A stretch of DNA of 49,001 nt, taken from Rhodospirillaceae bacterium (GTDB taxonomy: Bacteria > Pseudomonadota > Alphaproteobacteria > Dongiales > Dongiaceae). The first letter of the stretch is position 1. Each line of letters begins with the position of its first letter. A program made the position numbers and the translations under genes. The DNA lies in NCBI GenBank assembly GCA_016794165.1, contig JAEUKV010000328.1, forward strand, positions 1 to 49,001, given 5' to 3'. Below, one piece after another: positions 22,009 to 39,676 of the stretch. Under the pieces are notes generated by a model. The model was given only the letters and a program-made list of their open reading frames with translations, was not told the DNA's origin and did not search any database.

Positions 22009-23329
22009 GCGCAACGACGACCTGATGGCGCGCGATGCCGGCAGCATTGCCGGTATCCAGAAGCTGCGCTTCGGCCCCTTTGCGATTCGCGCGGGCGATG
22101 GCAACCGGCTGATTGCGGCGGACGGGCGATCGCTGATCGATTTCTCGGCCTCCTGGGGTGCCGCCAGTCTCGGCCACGGACACCCCGCCCTGGTCGAGGC
22201 CGTGCAACGGACACTCGGCGCCATGCCTGGCGCCAGCATCCTCTCCACCGTGAATGAGCCGGCTGTGTCTCTGGCCGAGAAACTGCTGGAACTGACGCCG
22301 GGCCAGGGCGAGCGGCGGGTCTGGTTCGGCCATTCCGGATCCGACGCCAACGAGACCATCATCCGCGCCGTCGAGGCGGCGACCGGGCGAAAGCGCGTAA
22401 TCGCCTTCGTCGGCGCCTATCATGGCGGCACCACGCTTTCCATGTCGGTTTCCGGCCATACGGCCCAGGCCCATGCGACGCCACGCCCGGGCCTTTTCCT
22501 GCTGCCCTATCCCAATCCCTACCGGCCGCATTTCCCGGGTGCCGTCGGCGAGGCGACATTGGCCCATCTCGACTACCTGCTCGCCACCGTCTGCCCAGCT
22601 CATGACACGGCGGCGATCCTGATCGAGGCGATCCAGTCCGATGGTGGGTTGCTGGTGCCGCCGCCCGGATTCCTCGCCGCCGTCGCCGATCGCGCCAGGC
22701 GCCACGGCATCCTAGTGGTCTGCGACGAAGTGAAGGTCGGGCTCGGCCGGACCGGCATGATGCATGCCTTCGCCGCTGAGGGCGTGGAACCCGACCTCAT
22801 CAGCTTCGGCAAGGGGCTGGGTGGCGGGCTGCCTCTCTCGGCGGTGGTGGGACCGGCCGACATCCTCGACCGACAGACGGCCTTTGCCATGCAGACCCTG
22901 TGCGGCAACCCGGTCAGCTGCGCCGCCGGCAATGCGGTGCTGGAGACCATCGCCAAGGAAGGCCTGGTGGACAATGCGGCCCAGCGCGGCGGCGAGATCA
23001 TGACCGGCCTGCGGCGACTGGCGGAGCGCCATCCCCAGATCGGCGATATCCGCGGCCGCGGCCTCGCCATCGGCGTCGAATTGGTCGCGGACCGAACGAG
23101 CCGGGAACCGGCCAGCCGGTTCTGCCAAAAGGTCGTCTATCGCTGCTTCGAGCTGGGGCTCTTGCTGTTCTACGTCGGGCTGCGCTCGAATGTGCTGGAA
23201 CTGACACCACCCATGACCCTCACCGCCCGCGAAGTCGAAAAGGGCCTCGACATCCTCGATCGGGCGATCGGCGATGTGGCCACCGGCCGTGTGCCGGATG
23301 CTGCCATCGCCGCCTATGCCGGCTGGTAA
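21992..23329 (+). CDS. Class III aminotransferase (GABA/ornithine aminotransferase family)
   Basis: A 445-residue PLP enzyme, with the PLP phosphate site HSGSDANE, AFVGAYHGGTT, the cofactor Asp245 in VVCDEVKVGLGRTG and the Schiff-base Lys274 in SFGKGLGGGLPLSAVVG. The fold places it with 4-aminobutyrate, ornithine and putrescine aminotransferases. The start overlaps the ligase gene: ATG 21992 is chosen over GTG 21983, and neither has a good ribosome site, which fits translational coupling. The neighbouring ligase and the kinase-M23-aminotransferase fusion suggest an amine-degradation pathway in which this enzyme removes an amino group. The substrate is unknown. Confidence 0.9.
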   Translation: MPAAIERNDDLMARDAGSIAGIQKLRFGPFAIRAGDGNRLIAADGRSLIDFSASWGAASLGHGHPALVEAVQRTLGAMPGASILSTVNEPAVSLAEKLLELTPGQGERRVWFGHSGSDANETIIRAVEAATGRKRVIAFVGAYHGGTTLSMSVSGHTAQAHATPRPGLFLLPYPNPYRPHFPGAVGEATLAHLDYLLATVCPAHDTAAILIEAIQSDGGLLVPPPGFLAAVADRARRHGILVVCDEVKVGLGRTGMMHAFAAEGVEPDLISFGKGLGGGLPLSAVVGPADILDRQTAFAMQTLCGNPVSCAAGNAVLETIAKEGLVDNAAQRGGEIMTGLRRLAERHPQIGDIRGRGLAIGVELVADRTSREPASRFCQKVVYRCFELGLLLFYVGLRSNVLELTPPMTLTAREVEKGLDILDRAIGDVATGRVPDAAIAAYAGW

Positions 23330-23354
23330 CCCCCAAAGCGAGATCTCAACCGAT

Positions 23355-26399
<3,045 letters not shown>

Positions 26400-27723: not shown

Positions 27724-29340
27724 TCAGGCCGCGGCATTCATGCGCAAACGAAACCCAGCATAACCCTGCCGGGCAATCTCGTCACACTGGTCGCAATAGG
27801 CCTTGAAGCCCGCCACATAGGCCAGGAACACATGCGGCTTGCCGGGGACGTTGGCGCCGATATACCAGGATTGCGCCCGGGGATAGAGCGTCCGGTCGGC
27901 ATCCTGCCAGACCTGCCGCGCCCATCCTTCCTGCGCCGCCGGCTCGGCCTCGATCTCGCCGATCTGCTGCGCGCGCGCATGGTCGATGAGGGTGCTGATC
28001 CATTCCACATGCTGCTCGCCTGCGAGCAGCACATTGGCGAGCACCGACGGACTGCCCGGACCGGTCACGATGAACATGTTGGGAAACCCGGCGACGGCCA
28101 TGCCCAGATAGGCGGTGGCACCGTCCGCCCAGGCGGCACTCAGCTTGCGGCCCTGCCGGCCGGTGATCTCGATCCGCTGCAGCGCGCCGGTAAAGGCATC
28201 GAAGCCGGTGGCCAGGACGAGCGTGTCGAAGGAATAGCTGGCCTTCCCGGTCTTCAGGCCATCGGGGGTGATGCTTTGGATCGGATCGCCGTGGATGTCG
28301 ACCAGGGTCACGTTGTCCCGGTTGTAGGTCTCGTAATAGCCGGTATCCACGCAAAGCCGCTTGGCCCCGAGCGGATGATCCCTGGGGCACAGCAATTCGG
28401 CCACCTTGGGATCGCGCACGGTCGCGCGAATCTTGCGGCGCACAAAATCGGCGGCCAGACGGTTCGCTTCTGCGGATTCCATCACATCGGTAAAAAAATA
28501 CTGGATGTTGAAACCGCCCTGCTGCCAGCATTTTTCGAAGGCTGCCTCGCGGTCTTCGGGCGAGAGGTCCATGATGGTCAGGATCGCCTCTTCGGCGTAG
28601 TCGCCGGCATAGGAGTTGCGTGATTTCCGCCGCAAGCTGGCATAGTCGCGCTTCATCGCCGCGACCTTGTCGTCGGACATCGGCGCGTTCCAGGCCGGAA
28701 CCGAGAAATTGGCCGTGCGCTGGAACACGGTGAGATACTCGGCCGCTTGCGCGATGAGCGGGATCGACTGGATGCCGGAGGAACCCGTGCCGATGATCCC
28801 CACGCGGCGGCCGGTGAAGTCGACGCCTTCCCGCGGCCAGTCGGCGGTGTGGAAGACATCGCCGGCGAAGCTGTCCAGCCCCGGCACATCCACCTTCTTG
28901 GGAACCGACAGGCAGCCCGTCGCCATGATGAGGAAGCGCGCCAGGAACCGCTCGCCGCGATCCGTCGTCACCGCCCATTTCGCCGCCGACTCGTCATAGG
29001 TGGCATCCGTGACCTGGGTTCCGAACTGGATGTCGCGCCGCAAGTCGAACTTGTCGGCGACATGCCGGGCATAGCGCAGGATCTCGGGCTGTGTTGCATA
29101 GCGGTGCGACCATCGCCATTCCTGCTGCAGCTCGTCGGAGAACGAGTAGGAATAGCTCATGCTTTCGATATCGCAACGGGCACCGGGATAGCGGTTCCAG
29201 TACCAGGTGCCGCCGACATCGTCGCCCTTCTCGATGGCGCGGATCGAAAATCCCAGCCCGCGCAGGCGATGGATCGCATACATGCCGGCAAAACCGGCAC
29301 CGACGATAAGGACGTCGACCTCGCGCACTTGACCAACCAT
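27724..29340 (-). CDS. Baeyer-Villiger-type flavin monooxygenase
   Basis: A 538-residue class B flavoprotein monooxygenase. It has the FAD site GAGFAG (14-19), GGTWYWNRYPGARCD, the BVMO fingerprint FAGDVFHTADWP (158-169) and the NADPH site GTGSSG (184-189). Size and the GTWYWNRYPG element match cyclohexanone/phenylacetone-type enzymes, which insert oxygen beside a ketone to give an ester or lactone. The ATG at 29349 directly abuts GAGGAG; the ATG at 29340 has it nine nucleotides upstream and is preferred. It is divergent from the di-iron desaturase gene across a 197-nt region containing one of the two twin promoters. It may act after an alcohol dehydrogenase produces a ketone. Confidence 0.93.
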   Translation of the reverse strand: MVGQVREVDVLIVGAGFAGMYAIHRLRGLGFSIRAIEKGDDVGGTWYWNRYPGARCDIESMSYSYSFSDELQQEWRWSHRYATQPEILRYARHVADKFDLRRDIQFGTQVTDATYDESAAKWAVTTDRGERFLARFLIMATGCLSVPKKVDVPGLDSFAGDVFHTADWPREGVDFTGRRVGIIGTGSSGIQSIPLIAQAAEYLTVFQRTANFSVPAWNAPMSDDKVAAMKRDYASLRRKSRNSYAGDYAEEAILTIMDLSPEDREAAFEKCWQQGGFNIQYFFTDVMESAEANRLAADFVRRKIRATVRDPKVAELLCPRDHPLGAKRLCVDTGYYETYNRDNVTLVDIHGDPIQSITPDGLKTGKASYSFDTLVLATGFDAFTGALQRIEITGRQGRKLSAAWADGATAYLGMAVAGFPNMFIVTGPGSPSVLANVLLAGEQHVEWISTLIDHARAQQIGEIEAEPAAQEGWARQVWQDADRTLYPRAQSWYIGANVPGKPHVFLAYVAGFKAYCDQCDEIARQGYAGFRLRMNAAA

Positions 29341-29447
29341 CGCCGTCATCTCCTCTGCTCAGGCGCGTCGCCGAGCCATTTGCAAGTCGCTGCAGTCAGC
29401 TTGAAATGGCTGCTTTCTGCCGAAAACTGGGGGGCCCAAAGTAATAC

Positions 29448-29482
29448 TTGACAGCCATACAGTTTTCTTGATGATAGTACAA
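29448..29482 (+). promoter_or_regulatory. Twin promoter/operator A, upstream of the desaturase gene
   Basis: TTGACA (29448-29453), a 17-bp spacer and ATGATA (29471-29476) point to the desaturase gene, 56 nt downstream. The 35-bp block matches twin B upstream of the GMC gene at 28 positions, including CATACA and CTTGATGATA inside and beyond the spacer. The conserved spacer suggests a bound regulator and not just RNA polymerase; the BetI/TetR-type protein at 32262 is the candidate. Confidence 0.6.
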
Positions 29483-29537
29483 CAACAATCGTAGCGACGT
29501 CCGGCCGGTCCTGGCCGGCAGCGGGAGGATCGGCAAC

Positions 29538-30413
29538 ATGGCCAAGGCGGGTTCGACGATCGCCAAGGAAATCGAGATCGGCCGGCGGTATTCCCCGGAT
29601 ATCGCCTGGCCCACCATTCGCCTTGCCATCGGCGTCTACGCCGCGCTCGGCGCCAGTATCTGGGCCGCCGTGAGCGGCCTGATGCCCTATTGGGCGGCCG
29701 GCATCATCAACGCCATCGTCCTCTATTCCGCCTACACCGTCATCCACGAGGCCGTGCACAACAACATCGTGCCGCGCAACAGGCGCCTCGCCTGGGTCAA
29801 CAAGTTGCTTGGCTTTGCCGTCTGCATCCTGTTGTGGATGTTCTTCTATCCACACAAGAAGTCGCATATGGCGCACCACACCAAATGCAACACCGATGAG
29901 GATCCGGACATCTACGCCCGGGGCGAATTCGGAACGGTCGCCTTCTGGCGCATTCCGCTGGCGGCTCTCAGCCATTTCAACCCATTCGGCCTGCGTCGCG
30001 ACTGCGAGCGCTTCAACGTGACGGCACGGGAGCGCGCCATTTCCTACGCAACCTTTGCCGCCTACAGCGCCGTCGTCATCGGCCTGGTCGCTTTCGGCTA
30101 TGGCTACGAACTTCTGGTCCTGTGGTTCATTCCCTGGCTGATCGGCTATTCCATCATGCTGGTGTTCTTCACATGGATACCGCATCATGCCCATACTGAA
30201 ACGGGCCGCTATCGGAACACGCGCTGCTCGATCTGGCCGGGTGCCAATTTCCTGACCCAGGGCCAGCATATGCATCTCATTCATCATTTGATGCTGTGGA
30301 TTCCCTACTATCAGTACGAACAGGTCTTTCGCGAAATCCGTCCCTATCTCGAGCAGAACAACGCGATGATCGACGGCTTCTGGCCGCGCATCGACCAGCC
30401 GGCGAACAGCTAG
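29538..30413 (+). CDS. Membrane di-iron fatty acid desaturase / hydroxylase family protein
   Basis: A 291-residue integral membrane protein with four hydrophobic stretches and the histidine clusters of membrane di-iron oxygenases: HEAVH (70-74), HMAHH (110-114), HHAH (216-219) and HMHLIHH (244-250). Spacing fits the fatty-acid-desaturase and carotenoid-hydroxylase/ketolase group, which uses O2 and electrons from a ferredoxin-type reductase to hydroxylate or desaturate hydrophobic substrates. A reductase with flavin and 2Fe-2S domains is encoded nearby, which would complete the system. It converges on the GMC gene. GGGAGG lies upstream of ATG 29538. Whether it acts on fatty acids, terpenoids, sterols or a small alkyl compound cannot be told. 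Confidence 0.88.
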   Translation: MAKAGSTIAKEIEIGRRYSPDIAWPTIRLAIGVYAALGASIWAAVSGLMPYWAAGIINAIVLYSAYTVIHEAVHNNIVPRNRRLAWVNKLLGFAVCILLWMFFYPHKKSHMAHHTKCNTDEDPDIYARGEFGTVAFWRIPLAALSHFNPFGLRRDCERFNVTARERAISYATFAAYSAVVIGLVAFGYGYELLVLWFIPWLIGYSIMLVFFTWIPHHAHTETGRYRNTRCSIWPGANFLTQGQHMHLIHHLMLWIPYYQYEQVFREIRPYLEQNNAMIDGFWPRIDQPANS

Positions 30414-30439
30414 GCCGGCGCGGCTCTCTCGGACCAACT

Positions 30440-32068
30440 TCAACCGACCGGCGGTCGGTAGGCCGGGGCCAGGGCCGGTGCGCCGGCAATCATGTCGGCG
30501 GCCTTCTCCGCGATCATGATGGTGGGGGCGTTGAGATTGGCACTGGTGACCGAGGGCATGACCGAGGCATCGACCACGCGCAAGCCCTCGATGCCCCGCA
30601 CGCGCAACTCCGGATCGACCACCGCCATCCCATCGACGCCCATCTTGCAGGTGCAACTCGGGTGAAACTCAGTTTCCGCCTTCGCTCGGATGAAGGCGTC
30701 GATGTCGGCATCGCTACGCACATCCGGCCCGGGCAGAATTGGTGTCGGCTGGAGAGATTTCAGCGCCGACCCATTGAGAATCTCCCGCACCAGGCAAATC
30801 CCATCGCGGAATTCCTGCCGATCCGAATCGGTAGCCAGGAAGTTGAAGGCGATTACCGGCTTGTCATGGGGATCGGCCGAGGCGAGGTGGATGCGGCCGC
30901 GGCTCTCCTGGCGCAGCTGCGAGAGGTGCAGCATGAACCCGCGCGCCAGCTTCAGCCTCGTGCCCACCTGCTCGATCGAGACCGGGCCCAGATGGAACTG
31001 CAGATTGGCATGTGGCAGATCCGGTCGCGATCTGGCAAACCCGCCGATTTCGTAGATGTTGGACGCGGCCGGACCGGAGCGGTCGAGCAGCCAGCGCGCC
31101 CCGACATAAAGCTTGGCCAGCGGGTTATCCAGCCACTCGATCGACACCGGTTTGGCGAGGCCGAATTTCAGCCCGACATCCATGTGATCCTGCAGATTGG
31201 CGCCGACGCCGGGCAAATCGAGCTGAACCGGAATATCGTGGCGCGCTAGCTCGTCCGCTGGGCCGATGCCCGAGAGCATCAGCAGCTGCGGCGAGTTGAT
31301 CGCCCCACCCGACAGGATCACCTCACGTTTGGCCGTGACCTCGACCACCTCGCCGCCGCGCTCATAGCGCACGCCAACCGCCCGGCCACCCTCGATCAAG
31401 AGCTGGTGGACCAGCGCCCCGGTGAGAACGGTGAGATTGGGCCGGTTCATGGCGGGATGGAGATAGGCGACGGCGGCGCTGCAACGCTCACCGCGCCGCT
31501 TGGTGCTGTCGAGGCGCGCAAATCCCTCCGGCTGCGCCCCGTTGAGGTCATCCGATATGACATGGCCGGCTTCGCCCGCCGAATCGAGAAAGGCATCAAA
31601 GATTGGAGATTCCAGGCGGCCGCGCTCCGTCGACAGCGGCCCGCTGTCGCCGCGATAGAAGCTGCCGCCGCGATCGCTGGTCTCGGCGCGCTTGAAATAG
31701 GGCAAGCAATGGGCGTAGTCCCAGTGCGGCAGGCCGGTCGCCGCCCAGCGGTCGAAATCCAGCGGGTGGCCGCGCAGATAGACCATCGAATTGATCGAGG
31801 AGGAACCGCCCAGCACGCGCCCACGCGGCACCGGTATCCGCCGGCCGTCCATGCCGGCCTGGGGTGCGCTTTCGTAACTCCAATTGGTGCGCGGATCGAG
31901 ATACTGCCGGTAAACACCCGCCGGCATGCGCATCATCAGCCCGCCATCGCGCGGCCCGGCTTCCAGAAGCAGCACACGCGCCTGGGGATCCGCGCTCAGG
32001 CGATTGGCAAGTACACAGCCCGCCGAGCCACCACCGACAATGATGAAATCGAACGCATTCCGGCGCAT
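30440..32068 (-). CDS. GMC family oxidoreductase (choline/alcohol dehydrogenase type)
   Basis: A 542-residue flavoprotein of the glucose-methanol-choline family. It has the N-terminal FAD motif IIVGGGSAGCVLANRL, GRVLGGSSSINSMVYLRGHPLDFDRWA, GAINSPQLLMLSGIGP, and the active-site HPSCTCKMG with VVDASVMPSVTSANLNAPTIMIAEKAAD at the end. The overall pattern is that of choline dehydrogenase BetA and the alkane-pathway alcohol dehydrogenase AlkJ; both oxidise primary alcohols to aldehydes using membrane acceptors. The ATG at 32068 sits four nucleotides after GGGGAG; ATG 32071 and an upstream frame to 32167 are alternatives. Divergent from the BetI-like regulator and reductase genes, it has twin promoter B directly upstream. 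Confidence 0.93.
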   Translation of the reverse strand: MRRNAFDFIIVGGGSAGCVLANRLSADPQARVLLLEAGPRDGGLMMRMPAGVYRQYLDPRTNWSYESAPQAGMDGRRIPVPRGRVLGGSSSINSMVYLRGHPLDFDRWAATGLPHWDYAHCLPYFKRAETSDRGGSFYRGDSGPLSTERGRLESPIFDAFLDSAGEAGHVISDDLNGAQPEGFARLDSTKRRGERCSAAVAYLHPAMNRPNLTVLTGALVHQLLIEGGRAVGVRYERGGEVVEVTAKREVILSGGAINSPQLLMLSGIGPADELARHDIPVQLDLPGVGANLQDHMDVGLKFGLAKPVSIEWLDNPLAKLYVGARWLLDRSGPAASNIYEIGGFARSRPDLPHANLQFHLGPVSIEQVGTRLKLARGFMLHLSQLRQESRGRIHLASADPHDKPVIAFNFLATDSDRQEFRDGICLVREILNGSALKSLQPTPILPGPDVRSDADIDAFIRAKAETEFHPSCTCKMGVDGMAVVDPELRVRGIEGLRVVDASVMPSVTSANLNAPTIMIAEKAADMIAGAPALAPAYRPPVG

Positions 32069-32166
32069 CATTCTCCCCACTTCCGACTCGCGCGGCTGGA
32101 ACGACTGATGCGCTGCCGCGTCCCACCCCGCCCGGCAAGGGCGCCAAACCGCCGCGGAGAAAGACA

Positions 32167-32201
32167 TTGTCTTATCATCAAGTAATTTGTATGTGTGTCA
32201 A
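32167..32201 (-). promoter_or_regulatory. Twin promoter/operator B, upstream of the GMC gene
   Basis: On the minus strand TTGACA (32201-32196), 17 bp, then ATGATA (32178-32173) point into the GMC gene. Of 35 positions, 28 equal twin A at 29448. Because it lies between GMC and the regulator-reductase unit, a protein bound here could control both directions. Confidence 0.6.
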
Positions 32202-32261
32202 GGACGAGATCGCGGTATCTCGGGCGGCGTTTGCACCGACCGCCGTCAGGGAGGATCAGGC

Positions 32262-32912
32262 ATGAGAACCAGCATCGAGAAGATTCGGCGGCGCGATCTG
32301 GTCGAGGCGGCCTTCCAGACCTTTCTGGATCACGGCATGAACGGCACCACCGTTGCCCGGATCGGCGAGCAGGCCGGCATGTCGCACGGCATCGTCAACT
32401 ACTACTTCAAGAGCAAGGACCAATTGCTGAGTGCCGTGATCCGGCACGCCTTCGCCCTGATCCTGCGACAGGCGGTCGATCGCATGCGCCTCGCCACGAC
32501 TCCGCGCGAGCGCATCTCCGCGATTATCGCCGGCAACTTCTCGGAGGACCTCTTCAACCGCGAAACGGCGGCCGCCTGGATTTCCTTCTATGCCGAAGTC
32601 GCCACACGCCCCGAATTCGAGCGGTTGCAGGACACCTTCTATCGGCGTCTGCACAGCAACCTCCTGCACGACCTGAAAAAGATCACGACCCCCGCCGAGG
32701 CGGAGAATATCGCCCTCGGTATCAGTGTCTGGATCGACGGTCTGTGGCTGCGCTGTGCCATGCGGCGGATGGGTGTCGAGCGGGACGCCGCCATAGCGGC
32801 CATCGAAAGCTATGTCGACACCAGCTTGGCGCAGGCCAACAATACGGCAAGCGGTACGACGCGCAAGAGCCCGGCACGGCGACGCGCGGCGGTGCCGGCC
32901 AATCGGCGCTAG
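32262..32912 (+). CDS. TetR family regulator, BetI-like
   Basis: A 216-residue TetR-family repressor. The N-terminal DNA-binding region reads IRRRDLVEAAFQTFLDHGMNGTTVARIGEQAGMSHGIVNYYFKSKDQLL, with the BetI-style IRR start and GIVNYYFKSK recognition helix. The C-terminal part (FNRETAAAWISFYAEVATRPEFERLQDTFYRRL) matches the BetI ligand domain, and a basic tail (TRKSPARRRAAV) follows. AGGGAGG precedes ATG 32262. It is divergent from the GMC gene and 20 nt ahead of the reductase. E. coli BetI senses choline; here the ligand may be choline-like, but this is inference. It is the best candidate to bind the twin promoter blocks. Confidence 0.92.
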   Translation: MRTSIEKIRRRDLVEAAFQTFLDHGMNGTTVARIGEQAGMSHGIVNYYFKSKDQLLSAVIRHAFALILRQAVDRMRLATTPRERISAIIAGNFSEDLFNRETAAAWISFYAEVATRPEFERLQDTFYRRLHSNLLHDLKKITTPAEAENIALGISVWIDGLWLRCAMRRMGVERDAAIAAIESYVDTSLAQANNTASGTTRKSPARRRAAVPANRR

Positions 32913-32932: not shown

Positions 32933-33937
32933 ATGACCCACGAACTGACTGTGCGCGGCGTGGTCGACGAAACCGCGGACACCCGGTCGATCGAATTCGA
33001 CGTGCCGACCGCGCTTTCCGCCACCTTCGCCTACAAGCCCGGCCAGTTCCTGAGCTTCGACATCGCCGTGGACGGCGTATCGCTGCGGCGCTGCTACTCC
33101 CTTTCCAGCACGCCCGGGATCGATCCGTTCCCGAGGGTCACGGTCAAGCGGGTCGCCGACGGCCGCGTGTCCAACTGGATCAATGACAGGGTCAAGGCGG
33201 GGGACCGCCTGTTGGTGGCGCCACCCGCCGGCCGCTTCGTTCTCGCCGACGAGGCGGCGCCGCTGTGCCTCTATGCCGGGGGCAGCGGCATCACCCCCAT
33301 CATCTCGATCCTGAAATTCGCGCTGGCCACCTGGACCACGCCCATTCGCCTGTTCTATGCCAATCGCAGTGCCGATACCGTCATCTTCCAGGCAAGCCTC
33401 GACCGGCTTGCGGCGGAGCATCCGACGCGGCTGCGGATCCACCATCACCTCGATCTCCGCGACGGGCTGACCACCCAGGGGGAAATCGACGACTTCGTCA
33501 AGGATACCCCGGGCTGGCGGCACTACATCTGCGGCCCGGCGCCCTTCATGGCGCTGGTGGAATCGACGCTGGCGGCGCGGCAGGTACCGGCTGGCGACAT
33601 CCATGTCGAGCGATTCACCGCGAGCGAGGACGACGCCGTGCCCCAAGCGCCGGCGGCGGGTGCTGTCGAAGCCGAGATCATTATCACCCTTGATGGTGAA
33701 ACCCGGCAGATTCGCGGGCGGGCCGGCGAAACCGTTCTGGAAGCAGCGCGCCGGGCCGGGTTGCAGCCCCCCTCAAGCTGCGAATCCGGCATCTGCGCGT
33801 CCTGCCTTGCCAAGATCACGCGGGGGCGTGCCACCATGACCCACAACGAGGTGCTCAACGACGATGAGATCGCCGAGGGCCTGACCCTGACCTGTCAGGC
33901 CGTGCCGGCATCCGACGAATTGCACGTCGAATACTGA
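32933..33937 (+). CDS. Ferredoxin-NAD(P)H reductase with C-terminal 2Fe-2S domain
   Basis: A 334-residue three-domain electron-transfer protein. An FAD-binding barrel (RRCYSLSS at 52-59) is followed by an NAD(P) domain (GGSGITPIISIL near 116-127, later CGPAPFM) and a plant-type 2Fe-2S domain with Cys283-x4-Cys288-x2-Cys291-x29-Cys321. Such proteins (PaaE, GbcB, KshB, HmpX-like) pass electrons from NAD(P)H to an oxygenase. The only obvious oxygenase partner nearby without its own reductase domain is the membrane di-iron protein at 29538. AGAAGGA precedes ATG 32933. It is co-directional with the regulator (20-nt gap) and converges on the MDR gene. Confidence 0.94.
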   Translation: MTHELTVRGVVDETADTRSIEFDVPTALSATFAYKPGQFLSFDIAVDGVSLRRCYSLSSTPGIDPFPRVTVKRVADGRVSNWINDRVKAGDRLLVAPPAGRFVLADEAAPLCLYAGGSGITPIISILKFALATWTTPIRLFYANRSADTVIFQASLDRLAAEHPTRLRIHHHLDLRDGLTTQGEIDDFVKDTPGWRHYICGPAPFMALVESTLAARQVPAGDIHVERFTASEDDAVPQAPAAGAVEAEIIITLDGETRQIRGRAGETVLEAARRAGLQPPSSCESGICASCLAKITRGRATMTHNEVLNDDEIAEGLTLTCQAVPASDELHVEY

Positions 33938-34983: not shown

Positions 34984-37101
34984 TCAGCCGAGTCCGAGTT
35001 CCGCACGCTGGCGCCGGCTCCAGGCCTGGGTCAGCCGGTCGGCGATCATGGCAATGGCCGCCATGCCGAGGCCGGCCACCATGCCGACGCCGAAATCGCC
35101 GTTGCCAAGGCCCACATAGACCTGCTGGCCAAGCTCCTTGGTTCCCACCAGCGCCGTGATGACCAGCATGGAGATGCCGTACATGATGGTCTGGTTGAGG
35201 CCGAGCATCAGGCCCGGCCGGGCCAGCGGCAGTTTCACCTGGAAGAGCAGCTGCCGGGTCGTGCAGCCCATGCAGGTGGCAGCCTCAACCACCTCGGTCG
35301 ACAGGCTGCGCAGGGCATTCTCCGAATAACGGATGGCAGGCACGATCGCATAGAGGCAGATCGCGAGCAGCGCCGTGAACTCGCCGACCTTGAAGATCAT
35401 GACGATAGGGATCAGCAGGACGAACAGCGGCATGGTCTGCAGCGTATCGTTGATCGGGCGCAGGATATGGGAAACGCGCGGGCTGTGCGCTGCCCAGATG
35501 CCGAGCGCAGTACCGACCAGGAAAGACAGCAGGACTGCGATGCCGCAAAGATAGATCGAGAGAATCGCGTATTCCCAGATTCCCGCGACCAGCAGATAGA
35601 CGAGCCCCAGCCCGGTGCCGAGCGCCAGCGAACGACCCCCGACCTTCCAGGCCAGCGCCGTTCCCAGGGCGACGAGCCCCAGCCACGGCAGATTGGTGAT
35701 GCCGAAGAAATAGACCGCCGACCAGATCACGATGCCGATCCCCGCCATCAGCGACCAGGTGCGCGCGGCATAGACGGCAAGGCCGCCCAGCACCAGAACA
35801 TAGAGCACCGTATGGATGGTCGACCAGGCGAAGCCCCAGGTGGCCGGCTTGACCGTCGCCTCGAGCCCGAGCCTGACCGGTAGCATGGCGAAATAGAATG
35901 CCGCCTTCTTGATCAGTTCGATCCAGCTCTTGCCAGCCACGATGAAGGTGGAGATCGCGCTGTCGATCGAGCGCGCTGGGAAAAAGCGCCAGTCCCGCGG
36001 CCATTCGGCCAGCGCCGGCAACACTTGAGCGAGCAGCAGGAACAAGGCGACCAGGGCCAGACCGATCAGTAGATGCCGATGCCGCGTCAAGGCGGCTTGT
36101 GCCGGCGGATCACCTGCACGGTCGCGCGCCGCGATCGCCCAGGTAATGCGATCCATGATCATGGCGATGAGGGCGATGACGATGCCGGCCAGGAAGGCTT
36201 CGCCAAAGGACGCCTTGCGCATGGTCGAGAGCACCGCCCAGCCGATATCCGCCGAGCCGCCGATGATCGACGCCACGATGACCATGCTGAGTGCCGCCAT
36301 GGTCGTCTGGTTGATACCGAGCATGATCTGGCGCCGGGCGGCGGGAACCTGAACCAGCCAGAACAGTTGTCGTGGCGTGGCACCCGACATGCGACCGGAC
36401 TCGACGACCTCCTCGGGGACTTCCTTGAGTCCGAGCTGCGTGTTGCGCACCATTGCCGGGAAGGCATAGAGCAGACTGGTGATGAGACCGGTCACGGGGC
36501 CGAAGCCGAACAGCTTGATGACCGGGAGGAGATAGGCAAAGGTCGGCACGGTCTGCAGGAAATCGAGCGTGGGGACGATGATGCGCTCGGCCGCGCGCCA
36601 GCGATAGGCAGCAACACCCAGCAGAAAGCCGATGGCAACCGAAAGCGGCACCGAAATCGCGACCAAAGAGAGCGTGTTCATGCTCTCGATCCAGAAGCCG
36701 ACCACCACCATATAGAGCATGCCGACCACGCTGAAAGCCGCGAGGCGCCACCCAGATACCCGGTACGCCAGCATTGCCACGATCGAGATCGTCGCGGGCC
36801 AGGGCAGCCAGTGCAGGACCGCCTGCACGGCGGCGATCGGCCATTGCAGCAGCCAGGCGATGCCCTTGAAGATGAAGCCGAAGCTGTCGACGAACCAGCT
36901 CATGAACTGATTGAGTGCCGGCGTGATGGGCAGAACCAGCTCCGCCGGGTAGGTCTTGAGCCAGGGCAAGAGGGCGTTGAAGCCGGGACTTACCAGAAGG
37001 AACGCGGTGATGGCCAGCCAGACCAGCGCCTGCCGGTCGAGCCCGCGCACCAAATCGCCGCCGATGCGGCGGCTAGGCAGCGTTTGGCTGTGACTTTGCA
37101 T
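34984..37101 (-). CDS. Glycine betaine/choline-type ABC transporter permease, double-domain
   Basis: A 705-residue inner-membrane protein holding two ProW-type permease domains in tandem. The first (about 150-330) has QTVPTFAYLLPVIKLFGFGPVTGLITSLLYAFPAMVRNTQLG and an EAA-like loop EEVVESGRMSGATPRQLFWLVQVP. The second (about 480-690) has QTMPLFVLLIPIVMIFKVGEFTALLAICLYAIVPAIRYSENAL and TEVVEAATCMGCTTRQLLFQVKLP. Single-domain ProW-type proteins are about half this size and act as dimers, so this is a fused dimer. The start (ATG 37101) overlaps the ATPase gene by 29 bases, implying translational coupling. It forms the channel of the quaternary-amine-type importer. Confidence 0.93.
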   Translation of the reverse strand: MQSHSQTLPSRRIGGDLVRGLDRQALVWLAITAFLLVSPGFNALLPWLKTYPAELVLPITPALNQFMSWFVDSFGFIFKGIAWLLQWPIAAVQAVLHWLPWPATISIVAMLAYRVSGWRLAAFSVVGMLYMVVVGFWIESMNTLSLVAISVPLSVAIGFLLGVAAYRWRAAERIIVPTLDFLQTVPTFAYLLPVIKLFGFGPVTGLITSLLYAFPAMVRNTQLGLKEVPEEVVESGRMSGATPRQLFWLVQVPAARRQIMLGINQTTMAALSMVIVASIIGGSADIGWAVLSTMRKASFGEAFLAGIVIALIAMIMDRITWAIAARDRAGDPPAQAALTRHRHLLIGLALVALFLLLAQVLPALAEWPRDWRFFPARSIDSAISTFIVAGKSWIELIKKAAFYFAMLPVRLGLEATVKPATWGFAWSTIHTVLYVLVLGGLAVYAARTWSLMAGIGIVIWSAVYFFGITNLPWLGLVALGTALAWKVGGRSLALGTGLGLVYLLVAGIWEYAILSIYLCGIAVLLSFLVGTALGIWAAHSPRVSHILRPINDTLQTMPLFVLLIPIVMIFKVGEFTALLAICLYAIVPAIRYSENALRSLSTEVVEAATCMGCTTRQLLFQVKLPLARPGLMLGLNQTIMYGISMLVITALVGTKELGQQVYVGLGNGDFGVGMVAGLGMAAIAMIADRLTQAWSRRQRAELGLG

Positions 37102-38143
37102 CGGCCAATACCGCAATGACGCTGCCCGGCGTCACCATGCCAAGGGCGTTGCCGGCCACGTCGACGACGCGCAACCCAGCGGGTCGGGCCGCCAGTTCCG
37201 GCAACAGATCTTCCAGCTTGACGCGACCGTCGATCTTCGGCGCGTCGGCTGCAACACTCAGACTGGCATCGATCGCGTCCGCCGAGGTGAGGACCCGGGA
37301 ACGCGGCACTTCGCTGGTGAATTCGGCGACATAGGAATCCGCCGGATTGAGCACCAGATCGGCCGGTGCGCCCATCTGTACGATCCGGCCATCGCGCATG
37401 ATGGCCATCCGATCGGCGATCCGCAGGGCCTCGAGGAAGTCGTGCGTGATGAAGACAATGGACTTGCGCAGCAATTGCTGCAGCCGCAGGAACTCGTCCT
37501 GCATCTGGCGGCGAATGAGGGGATCCAGTGCCGAGAACGGTTCATCGAGGAACCATAGTTCCGGATCGACCGCCAGCGAGCGGGCGATGCCGACCCGCTG
37601 TTGCTGGCCGCCGGAGAGCTGATGGGGAAAGGCCGCCTCCCGCTCCTTCAGGCCGACCAGCTCGATCATCTTGCGCGCCCTGGCGTGGCGCTCGCCCTCG
37701 CTCGAGCCCTGCAGGCGCAGCGGAAAGGCGACATTGTCCAGCACGGTGAGATGCGGCAGCAGGCCGAAGCTCTGAAACACCATGCCCATCTTGTGGCGGC
37801 GGATGTCGATAAGCTCGTCGGGCGAGGCCTTGAGCAGGTTGCGCCCATCCAGGCGCACTTCGCCGGCCGTGGGCTCGACCAGGCGCGAGAGGCACCGCAC
37901 CACGGTCGACTTTCCGGACCCCGACAGGCCCATGATGACGAAGATCTCGCCCACCCGCACGTCGAAACTGACATCGCAGGCCGCCACGATATGGCCGGTT
38001 TCGCGGATGCGCCGCGCCAGGGCGGCGGTGTCGCCTGGTGCGTCCGTTCCCGTGAAGAAGCTGGCGGCGTCCTTGCCGTAGACCTTCCACAGATTTCGGC
38101 AGGACAGCTTGATTTGATCGCTTGCCTGTCCATTGTCGGGCAT
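37073..38143 (-). CDS. Glycine betaine/choline-type ABC transporter ATPase (ProV/OpuAA-like)
   Basis: A 356-residue ATPase with the N-terminal ProV-type insertion before the ABC core (LWKVYGKDAASFFTG). It then has Walker A GLSGSGKST (72-80), QSFGLLPHLTVLDNV, the signature LSGGQQQR (176-183), Walker B LWFLDEP (196-202) and THDFLEALRIADRMAIM. The C-terminal stretch (KLEDLLPELAARPAGLRVVDVAGNALGMVTPGSVI) looks like a single CBS-type element, the osmosensing region in OpuA. ATG 38143 has AAGGA six nucleotides upstream, better than GTG 38158. It follows the binding-protein gene after a 175-nt gap with a strong hairpin, and overlaps the permease start. Confidence 0.95.
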   Translation of the reverse strand: MPDNGQASDQIKLSCRNLWKVYGKDAASFFTGTDAPGDTAALARRIRETGHIVAACDVSFDVRVGEIFVIMGLSGSGKSTVVRCLSRLVEPTAGEVRLDGRNLLKASPDELIDIRRHKMGMVFQSFGLLPHLTVLDNVAFPLRLQGSSEGERHARARKMIELVGLKEREAAFPHQLSGGQQQRVGIARSLAVDPELWFLDEPFSALDPLIRRQMQDEFLRLQQLLRKSIVFITHDFLEALRIADRMAIMRDGRIVQMGAPADLVLNPADSYVAEFTSEVPRSRVLTSADAIDASLSVAADAPKIDGRVKLEDLLPELAARPAGLRVVDVAGNALGMVTPGSVIAVLADAKSQPNAA

Positions 38144-38318: not shown

Positions 38319-39290
38319 TCAGCTTGTCGCCTTGGAAACCCAGTTCTGCCAGACGCTTTCGTTCTGGTCCATCCACTCCTGGACGACTTCCTTGATGTCG
38401 CGGCCCTTGTTGTCCACTTCGAACATCAGCTTTTGCTGGGTGGTGTTGTCGAGGCTCATCGCCTCAAGCACCTTCCAGGCGGCCGGCCACTTGTCCTTCA
38501 TGCCCTTCCAGGCCACCTTGCTGACATTGGCGGCCGGACGGCTGCAATCCCCGACTTTGTCCGGAATCGGCCCCTTGGTCGGATCTTCGTCGCAGCCCTC
38601 TTCATAGGGCGGCAGGTCGACCCACTTCATCTCGACTTCCGAGAACAGCCAGTGCGGCGCCCAGAACATGACCAGAACCGGCTCCTCGGCCGCGACCGCG
38701 CTCTTGATTTCCGCCACCATGGCGCCTTCGCTGCCGCCCGGAATGGCCGTCATCGGCAGGCCGAGGGCCGCGATCAGCGGCTCGGCGCGAGCACCCCAAT
38801 CGGCCGGATAGTCGATCACCCGGCCATTGGGCATGGTCTCCGGCGTGGCAAAGGCCTCGCCGCAGTTCATCAAGGCCTTCCAGTCGGGCAGACCCGGACA
38901 TTTCGCTTCCATATAGGCCGGATAGACCCAGGATTCGACGGCGTCGATGCCGAGCGGCCCGAGCAGGACCAAATCCCCGCTGGCCACCGCCTTGGGATAG
39001 ATCTCGCCGACATTGTTGTCCCAGTTTTCGGGATTGGCGGTGAGGTTGCCGCTCACCATTGCTTCATATTGCGGCACGGCACCCGCGGTCACATATTCGA
39101 CCGTGTAGCCCATCTTTTCCAGAACCGAGCCATAGATGTAGGACGAGGCCAGCTGGCCGGTCCATTCGTTGAGGGCGAGCTTGATCGGATCCTTGGATTC
39201 GGGAACCGATTGTGCCTGAGCAACACCCGCCACCAGTACCATCGTCGCCGTGGTCGCGAGCAGCCGCCACGATTTTGCTAGATTTCCCAT
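38319..39290 (-). CDS. Glycine betaine/choline-type substrate-binding protein (OpuAC-like)
   Basis: A 323-residue periplasmic binding protein of the OpuAC/ProX family. The signal peptide MGNLAKSWRLLATTATMVLVAGVAQAQS is clear, with cleavage near residue 26. The mature part has IKLALNEWTGQLASSYIYGSVLEKMGYTVEYV, ENWDNNVGEIYPK and EEPVLVMFWAPHWLFSEVEMKWVDLPPY, whose conserved Trp residues form the aromatic cage for quaternary ammonium groups. Cysteines in KCPGLP, MNCGEA, EEGCDEDP and GDCSRP may form disulfides. ATG 39290 has AGGGA eight nucleotides upstream; ATG 39296 is two codons earlier but too close. It is the first gene of the transporter operon. The ligand is inferred to be betaine-, choline- or carnitine-like. 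Confidence 0.92.
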   Translation of the reverse strand: MGNLAKSWRLLATTATMVLVAGVAQAQSVPESKDPIKLALNEWTGQLASSYIYGSVLEKMGYTVEYVTAGAVPQYEAMVSGNLTANPENWDNNVGEIYPKAVASGDLVLLGPLGIDAVESWVYPAYMEAKCPGLPDWKALMNCGEAFATPETMPNGRVIDYPADWGARAEPLIAALGLPMTAIPGGSEGAMVAEIKSAVAAEEPVLVMFWAPHWLFSEVEMKWVDLPPYEEGCDEDPTKGPIPDKVGDCSRPAANVSKVAWKGMKDKWPAAWKVLEAMSLDNTTQQKLMFEVDNKGRDIKEVVQEWMDQNESVWQNWVSKATS

Positions 39291-39465
39291 TCGCATCTTC
39301 CCTGTTCTCCCTTCGTTGGCCGTTCGGCAGTTGACCGCTCCGGTAGGCTCCGCAGTCAGGTCACTACTCAACGCGAGCTTGGTCGCTCATTGAAATCACA
39401 TTGGCTTGATAACGCAAACCCGATTCAGAACGCGGCATCCAGCCGGCACAATCTATCCAATCCCC

Positions 39466-39571: not shown

Positions 39572-39601
39572 ATTTTATTATCCAATCAAAAAATTGGACA
39601 A
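39572..39601 (-). promoter_or_regulatory. Candidate promoter with internal dyad for the betaine-type operon
   Basis: On the minus strand TTGTCC (39601-39596), an 18-bp spacer and TAAAAT (39577-39572) resemble a promoter. Within the spacer region TCCAAT and ATTGGA (39581-39598) form a perfect 6-bp inverted repeat around six bases, a classical repressor position. It would give a leader of about 280 nt before the binding-protein start. Confidence 0.4.
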
Positions 39602-39676
39602 GCATCAAGGAAATTCTGAGCATGACCTGGATCGGGGCGGGCGGGGGTCCTTCGAACCCGCGCCCCGGATCCTGGC

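Follow-up and report, generated by a model that had tools for sequence, protein, structure and literature searches.

What makes two short intergenic segments, one ahead of a desaturase gene and the other ahead of a GMC oxidoreductase gene, so similar to each other? In the window, that is, the whole stretch of 49,001 nucleotides from a Rhodospirillaceae bacterium analysed here, block A (29448-29482, plus strand; TTGACAGCCATACAGTTTTCTTGATGATAGTACAA) and block B (32201-32167, minus strand; TTGACACACATACAAATTACTTGATGATAAGACAA) are identical at 28 of 35 positions, a count made in an earlier sequence-only reading of this DNA and borne out by our recount, and at 29 of 36 positions once the preceding C of each is included. 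The agreement is far above chance, as the best 35-mer match reached 24 in 1000 pairs of dinucleotide-shuffled intergenic regions and 22 in 2000 pairs of shuffled AT-rich 60-bp cores. TTGACA, CATACA, CTTGATGATA and ACAA are the stretches common to both blocks. A further copy with up to three mismatches in the 28 shared positions was found neither in the window nor in the 3.74-Mb draft genome (332 contigs), and when the own genome and the order (17 genomes) were searched for near-exact matches to the 35-bp block, only A and B came up.

The two blocks had been described as twin promoters, with ATGATA at a 17-bp spacing as the -10 element. However, this hexamer matches TATAAT at only one of six positions, TTGACA fits the first half-site of an operator as well as it fits a -35 element, and both blocks are situated in divergent intergenic regions. 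Extended by one base, each block fits four 8-bp half-sites with the consensus YTKGATGA, which are arranged as two 16-bp palindromes with centres 20 bp apart and a 4-bp linker between the units (Table 1). In this register, TTGACA corresponds to half-site 1, CATACA to half-site 2, CTTGATGA to half-site 3 and ACAA to half-site 4. The four half-sites thereby account for the shared bases within and outside the spacer, which the sequence-only reading had singled out as unexplained by core promoter needs. The symmetry of A and B is weak, and the fourth half-site is poor in both. When compared with an AT-matched null, each of the four slots in A and in B resembles a half-site, including the outer slots 1 and 4, which are the weakest ones and exceed the null with p values of 0.026 to 0.050.

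Table 1. Sequence elements and neighbouring genes in the window (bit scores refer to the named family models)
Feature	Position	Strand	Remarks
Operator A	29447..29482	+	CTTGACAGCCATACAG-TTTT-CTTGATGATAGTACAA, two imperfect 16-bp palindromes; BVMO-like/desaturase intergenic region
Operator B	32167..32202	-	CTTGACACACATACAA-ATTA-CTTGATGATAAGACAA; GMC/BetI-like TetR intergenic region
Candidate operator C	39574..39609	.	TTTATTATCCAATCAAAAAATTGGACAAGCATCAAG; upstream of transporter solute-binding gene
Promoter-like TTGACA-16-GATGAT	29448..29475	+	Overlaps operator A; 10/12 consensus; shuffles expect 0.0
Promoter-like TTGACA-16-GATGAT	32174..32201	-	Overlaps operator B; 10/12 consensus; shuffles expect 0.0
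Flavin monooxygenase (BVMO-like)	27724..29349	-	PF13738, PF00743; divergent from desaturase; probable second target of A
Desaturase-superfamily membrane protein	29538..30413	+	PF00487, 105.5 bits; proposed target of A
GMC oxidoreductase, choline-dehydrogenase subfamily	30440..32071	-	NF002550; proposed target of B
BetI-like TetR regulator	32262..32912	+	NF001978, TIGR03384, PF13977, PF00440; proposed operator binder
PaaE/GbcB-like ferredoxin-type reductase	32933..33937	+	20 bp after TetR gene; TIGR02160 and NF058606 below cut-off
ProX/choline-type ABC transporter solute-binding protein	38319..39371	-	NF008334, TIGR03414 below cut-off; probable target of C

The candidate binder is encoded nearby. 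Its gene had been placed between the two blocks; it is actually found outside the pair, on the right-hand side of block B. The BetI-like TetR protein scores 187.9 bits with NF001978 (cut-off 118) and 196.7 bits with TIGR03384, just under the cut-off of 201.3, and carries the N-terminal helix-turn-helix domain PF00440 (51.8 bits, cut-off 24) as well as the BetI-type C-terminal domain PF13977 (93.0 bits, cut-off 27). The GMC oxidoreductase passes the cut-off of 605 for NF002550 with 716.7 bits and stays below that of 732 for betA TIGR01810 with 637. To the right of the reductase gene follow a quinone-oxidoreductase-like gene and a choline/betaine-type ABC transporter, whose permease gene (34984-37116) comprises two permease domains in a single 710-residue frame. 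An aldehyde dehydrogenase gene was not detected among the neighbours examined. Each of the two blocks is flanked on both sides by divergently transcribed units, so that additional control of the BVMO-like gene and of the TetR-reductase unit is probable.

Orthologues of this regulator are rare. The class, phylum and order samples contained few, and three were found in total: one in G013 (same family, 61% identical), one in G086 (same class, 63%) and one in G012 (same family, 53%). The TetR proteins of the window, G013 and G086 have the same helix-turn-helix core, AGMSHGIVNYYFK. In G013, a desaturase gene is followed by the TetR gene, and the site is located directly upstream of the pair. It consists of a perfect inverted repeat with 9-bp arms, ATCATCAAG-GATA-CTTGATGAT, which is unique within three mismatches in the 5.9-Mb genome; among eight genomes searched for the inner repeat ATCATCAAG-N4-CTTGATGAT, G013 alone contained it exactly. 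In G086, the site CTTGATGCCCATCCAACAAAGTGGATAATCATCCAG occupies the intergenic region after the TetR gene and before genes for an alcohol dehydrogenase and a reductase, the latter being 60% identical to the window reductase over the stretch compared. The A, B, G013 and G086 sites align without gaps as four 8-bp half-sites. G012 was found only after the model had been fixed and hence represents an out-of-sample case. Within 19 kb of this genome, the two best sites with a 4-bp linker score 29.8 and 18.2, and both reside in the intergenic regions flanking the TetR gene, one of which is shared with a choline-type solute-binding gene while the other precedes an alcohol dehydrogenase gene. None of 5000 shuffles yielded both TetR-flanking sites. 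One of the G012 sites contains the perfect 16-bp unit TTGGATAATTATCCAA. Thus, the earlier proposal of a common operator with the BetI-like protein as its binder gained from the recurrence of half-sites and geometry beside TetR orthologues in three other genomes, whereas its twin-promoter framing was not supported. G012 also encodes a second BetI-like protein (L068:16635-17198; 35% identical), ~7 kb from the orthologue, whose gene has those for a choline dehydrogenase and a further transporter as neighbours.

Scoring matrices were used to rank sites within the window. A first half-site matrix, built with a 4-bp linker from the G013 and G086 sites only and hence without window sites, ranked A (22.3), B (20.2) and C (14.6) on top, followed by a fourth site with only 2.6; for A and B this test is partly circular, because the G013 and G086 sites had been picked as the best matches to these blocks. 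This circularity does not apply in the same way to G012, to site C and to the perfect symmetry of the G013 site. A score of 20.2 was reached by none of 1000 local shuffles and none of 1000 column-permuted matrices, and a score of 14.6 by five and six of them, respectively. The high scores of A and B were limited to the 4-bp linker. With a second matrix derived from four non-window sites, B (30.0), A (27.2) and C (23.0) again ranked highest, with a large drop afterwards. According to 2000 shuffles, 0.0005 positions scoring at least 20 are expected per 49 kb, and shuffling each site itself, which holds composition constant, gave p = 2e-5, the lowest value that this test can return. Around eight other BetI-like genes, site scores did not exceed 9.5, and BetI-like relatives at 43-45% identity in the genus had no site above 9.2. 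A hit on C537 of G086, with a score of -9.4, was dropped.

Site C had been absent from the list of the sequence-only reading. Its exact register is less certain, since the region scores 23.7 with the first matrix when an 8-bp linker is allowed. A genome-wide search with IUPAC patterns returned two more candidates in the rest of the own genome (G000). The first of these, TTGGATGATCGTTCAAACAATTGGATCATTAACAAC (C326:977-1012, on L043), is located just before a short-chain dehydrogenase gene and scores 31.9, which is higher than A and B; it is a possible distant member of the regulon. The other one is the block-like sequence CTTGACAATGGTATAGTTTACTTGATGAATAGATAA upstream of a gene for an FnrL-like Crp-family regulator (C204:18766-18801, corresponding to L042:7267-7302), which scores 26.6 with the four-site matrix and just 8.7 with the first matrix. 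In G086, C440 carries three palindrome units at 20-bp steps (L044:7464-7519), flanked by the gene for a GbcA-like Rieske oxygenase on one side and by that for a dehydrogenase E1 alpha subunit on the other.

Could A and B simply be strong sigma-70-type promoters that resemble each other owing to core promoter needs or to duplication of a promoter segment? The 10/12 consensus matches of TTGACA-16-GATGAT in both blocks would fit this idea, but CATACA and ACAA, which lie outside the hexamers, are shared by A and B as well. Moreover, the motif match in G013 is the inverted repeat itself, with a separate CTTGAC upstream of it, and the G086 and G012 sites possess the half-sites without a TTGACA promoter. 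We therefore regard promoters without an operator as highly improbable. It is likewise improbable, albeit to a somewhat lesser degree, that A and B serve another regulator, e.g. a BetI-like paralogue or an unlinked activator. The genome yields seven BetI-like hits in all, i.e. six besides this TetR, and binding by the latter is a prediction; however, the sites track this particular TetR subgroup in four genomes, and the eight other BetI-like loci mentioned above are devoid of high-scoring sites.

The composition of the operator itself leaves room for another arrangement, in which the inner repeat CATCAAG-N4-CTTGATG alone binds a single dimer, while TTGACA and ACAA represent elements of divergent promoters that overlap each other. 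The G013 inner repeat, which is perfect over nine base pairs, and the weakness of the outer slots in A and B speak for this arrangement. Against it stand the G012 site, where the unit TTGGATAATTATCCAA is perfect and the inner repeat is poor, the three units at 20-bp steps on C440 of G086, and the outer slots, which surpass the AT-matched null in both A and B. On balance, a single-dimer operator appears unlikely, though it deserves to be kept in mind. One observation counts against the reading of A and B as operators of the BetI-like TetR protein: desaturase relatives (L003-L006) lack both the TetR gene and the motif. Including L017, these relatives have neither an adjoining TetR gene nor a convincing site, and relatives of the desaturase or of the TetR protein were not found on plasmids.

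Considering these data together, A and B are very probably the operators of the BetI-like TetR protein, which is predicted to repress its targets jointly until an inducer appears. The elements, their spacing and their recurrence beside TetR orthologues can be read from the sequences, and we infer binding by this protein, occupancy by two dimers, repression, the inducer and regulation of the genes on either side of a block. In this model, two repressor dimers would bind each operator on roughly one face of the DNA, as 20 bp correspond to about two helical turns, and would cover the overlapping TTGACA-16-GATGAT promoter. When inducer is lacking, transcription of the BVMO-like and desaturase genes would be blocked from A, and that of the GMC gene and the TetR-reductase unit from B, the latter providing autoregulation, while the transporter genes would be blocked from C. 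Given the choline-type neighbours, the inducer that releases the repressor would probably be a quaternary-ammonium compound related to choline. In this way, a pair of similar promoters turns into a testable regulon, in which a single regulator would act on three sites in the window and on two further candidates elsewhere in the genome. Within it, the desaturase-like enzyme would be grouped with its likely reductase, with an enzyme resembling choline dehydrogenase and with a choline-type transporter, a combination that points to quaternary-ammonium metabolism.

A precedent for two palindromes in one divergent intergenic region is provided by BetI2 of Ruegeria pomeroyi DSS-3, which binds two flank-sharing palindromes between betI2 and betTA rather than the classical betI box (PMC12442346). 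The box of BetI1 from the same organism is ATTGACG*CGTCAAT (PMC12442346). Similar to the BetI2 case, an alphaproteobacterial BetI-type regulator is encountered here together with a non-classical box, choline-dehydrogenase and transporter genes as presumed targets, and, at A and B, two palindromes covering the promoters of divergent genes. In contrast, the BetI2 palindromes overlap and share AAACTTGAAC, an arrangement not seen at A and B, where the units are 4 bp apart without a common flank and form separate palindromes, 20 bp from centre to centre, with the half-site YTKGATGA. A further difference is that a desaturase-superfamily protein and a reductase are among the presumed targets in the window. 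The window protein shares with classical BetI the TetR_N and TetR_C_6 domains, a TTGA-type half-site overlapping the -35 region and a presumed choline-dehydrogenase-like target. Unlike classical BetI, it scores just below the TIGR03384 cut-off, and its half-site is TTGATGA or TTGGATGA within a 16-bp unit of a tandem array; a classical box of the ATTGACG*CGTCAAT type was not found at the target promoters, which carry the tandem 16-bp YTKGATGA palindromes instead. Judged by sequence, we class the window regulator as a BetI-like protein whose probable operator is a new variant, not as BetI proper. BetI-type operators would thereby be more varied than previously known. Our literature search found no description of a BetI-controlled desaturase of this kind.

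A more far-reaching interpretation, which we consider conceivable but put forward tentatively, is that a BetI-like subgroup of its own relies on 16-bp palindromes, arrayed at 20-bp steps, as the regulon code of an oxygen-dependent quaternary-amine pathway. If so, a desaturase-superfamily hydroxylase in the window or a Rieske oxygenase in G086 would be fed by a related PaaE/GbcB-like reductase, and the choline-type transporter would belong to the same regulon. On the far side of the BVMO-like gene, a single long reading frame (23274-26399) combines phosphotransferase (APH), M23 peptidase-like and class-III aminotransferase domains.
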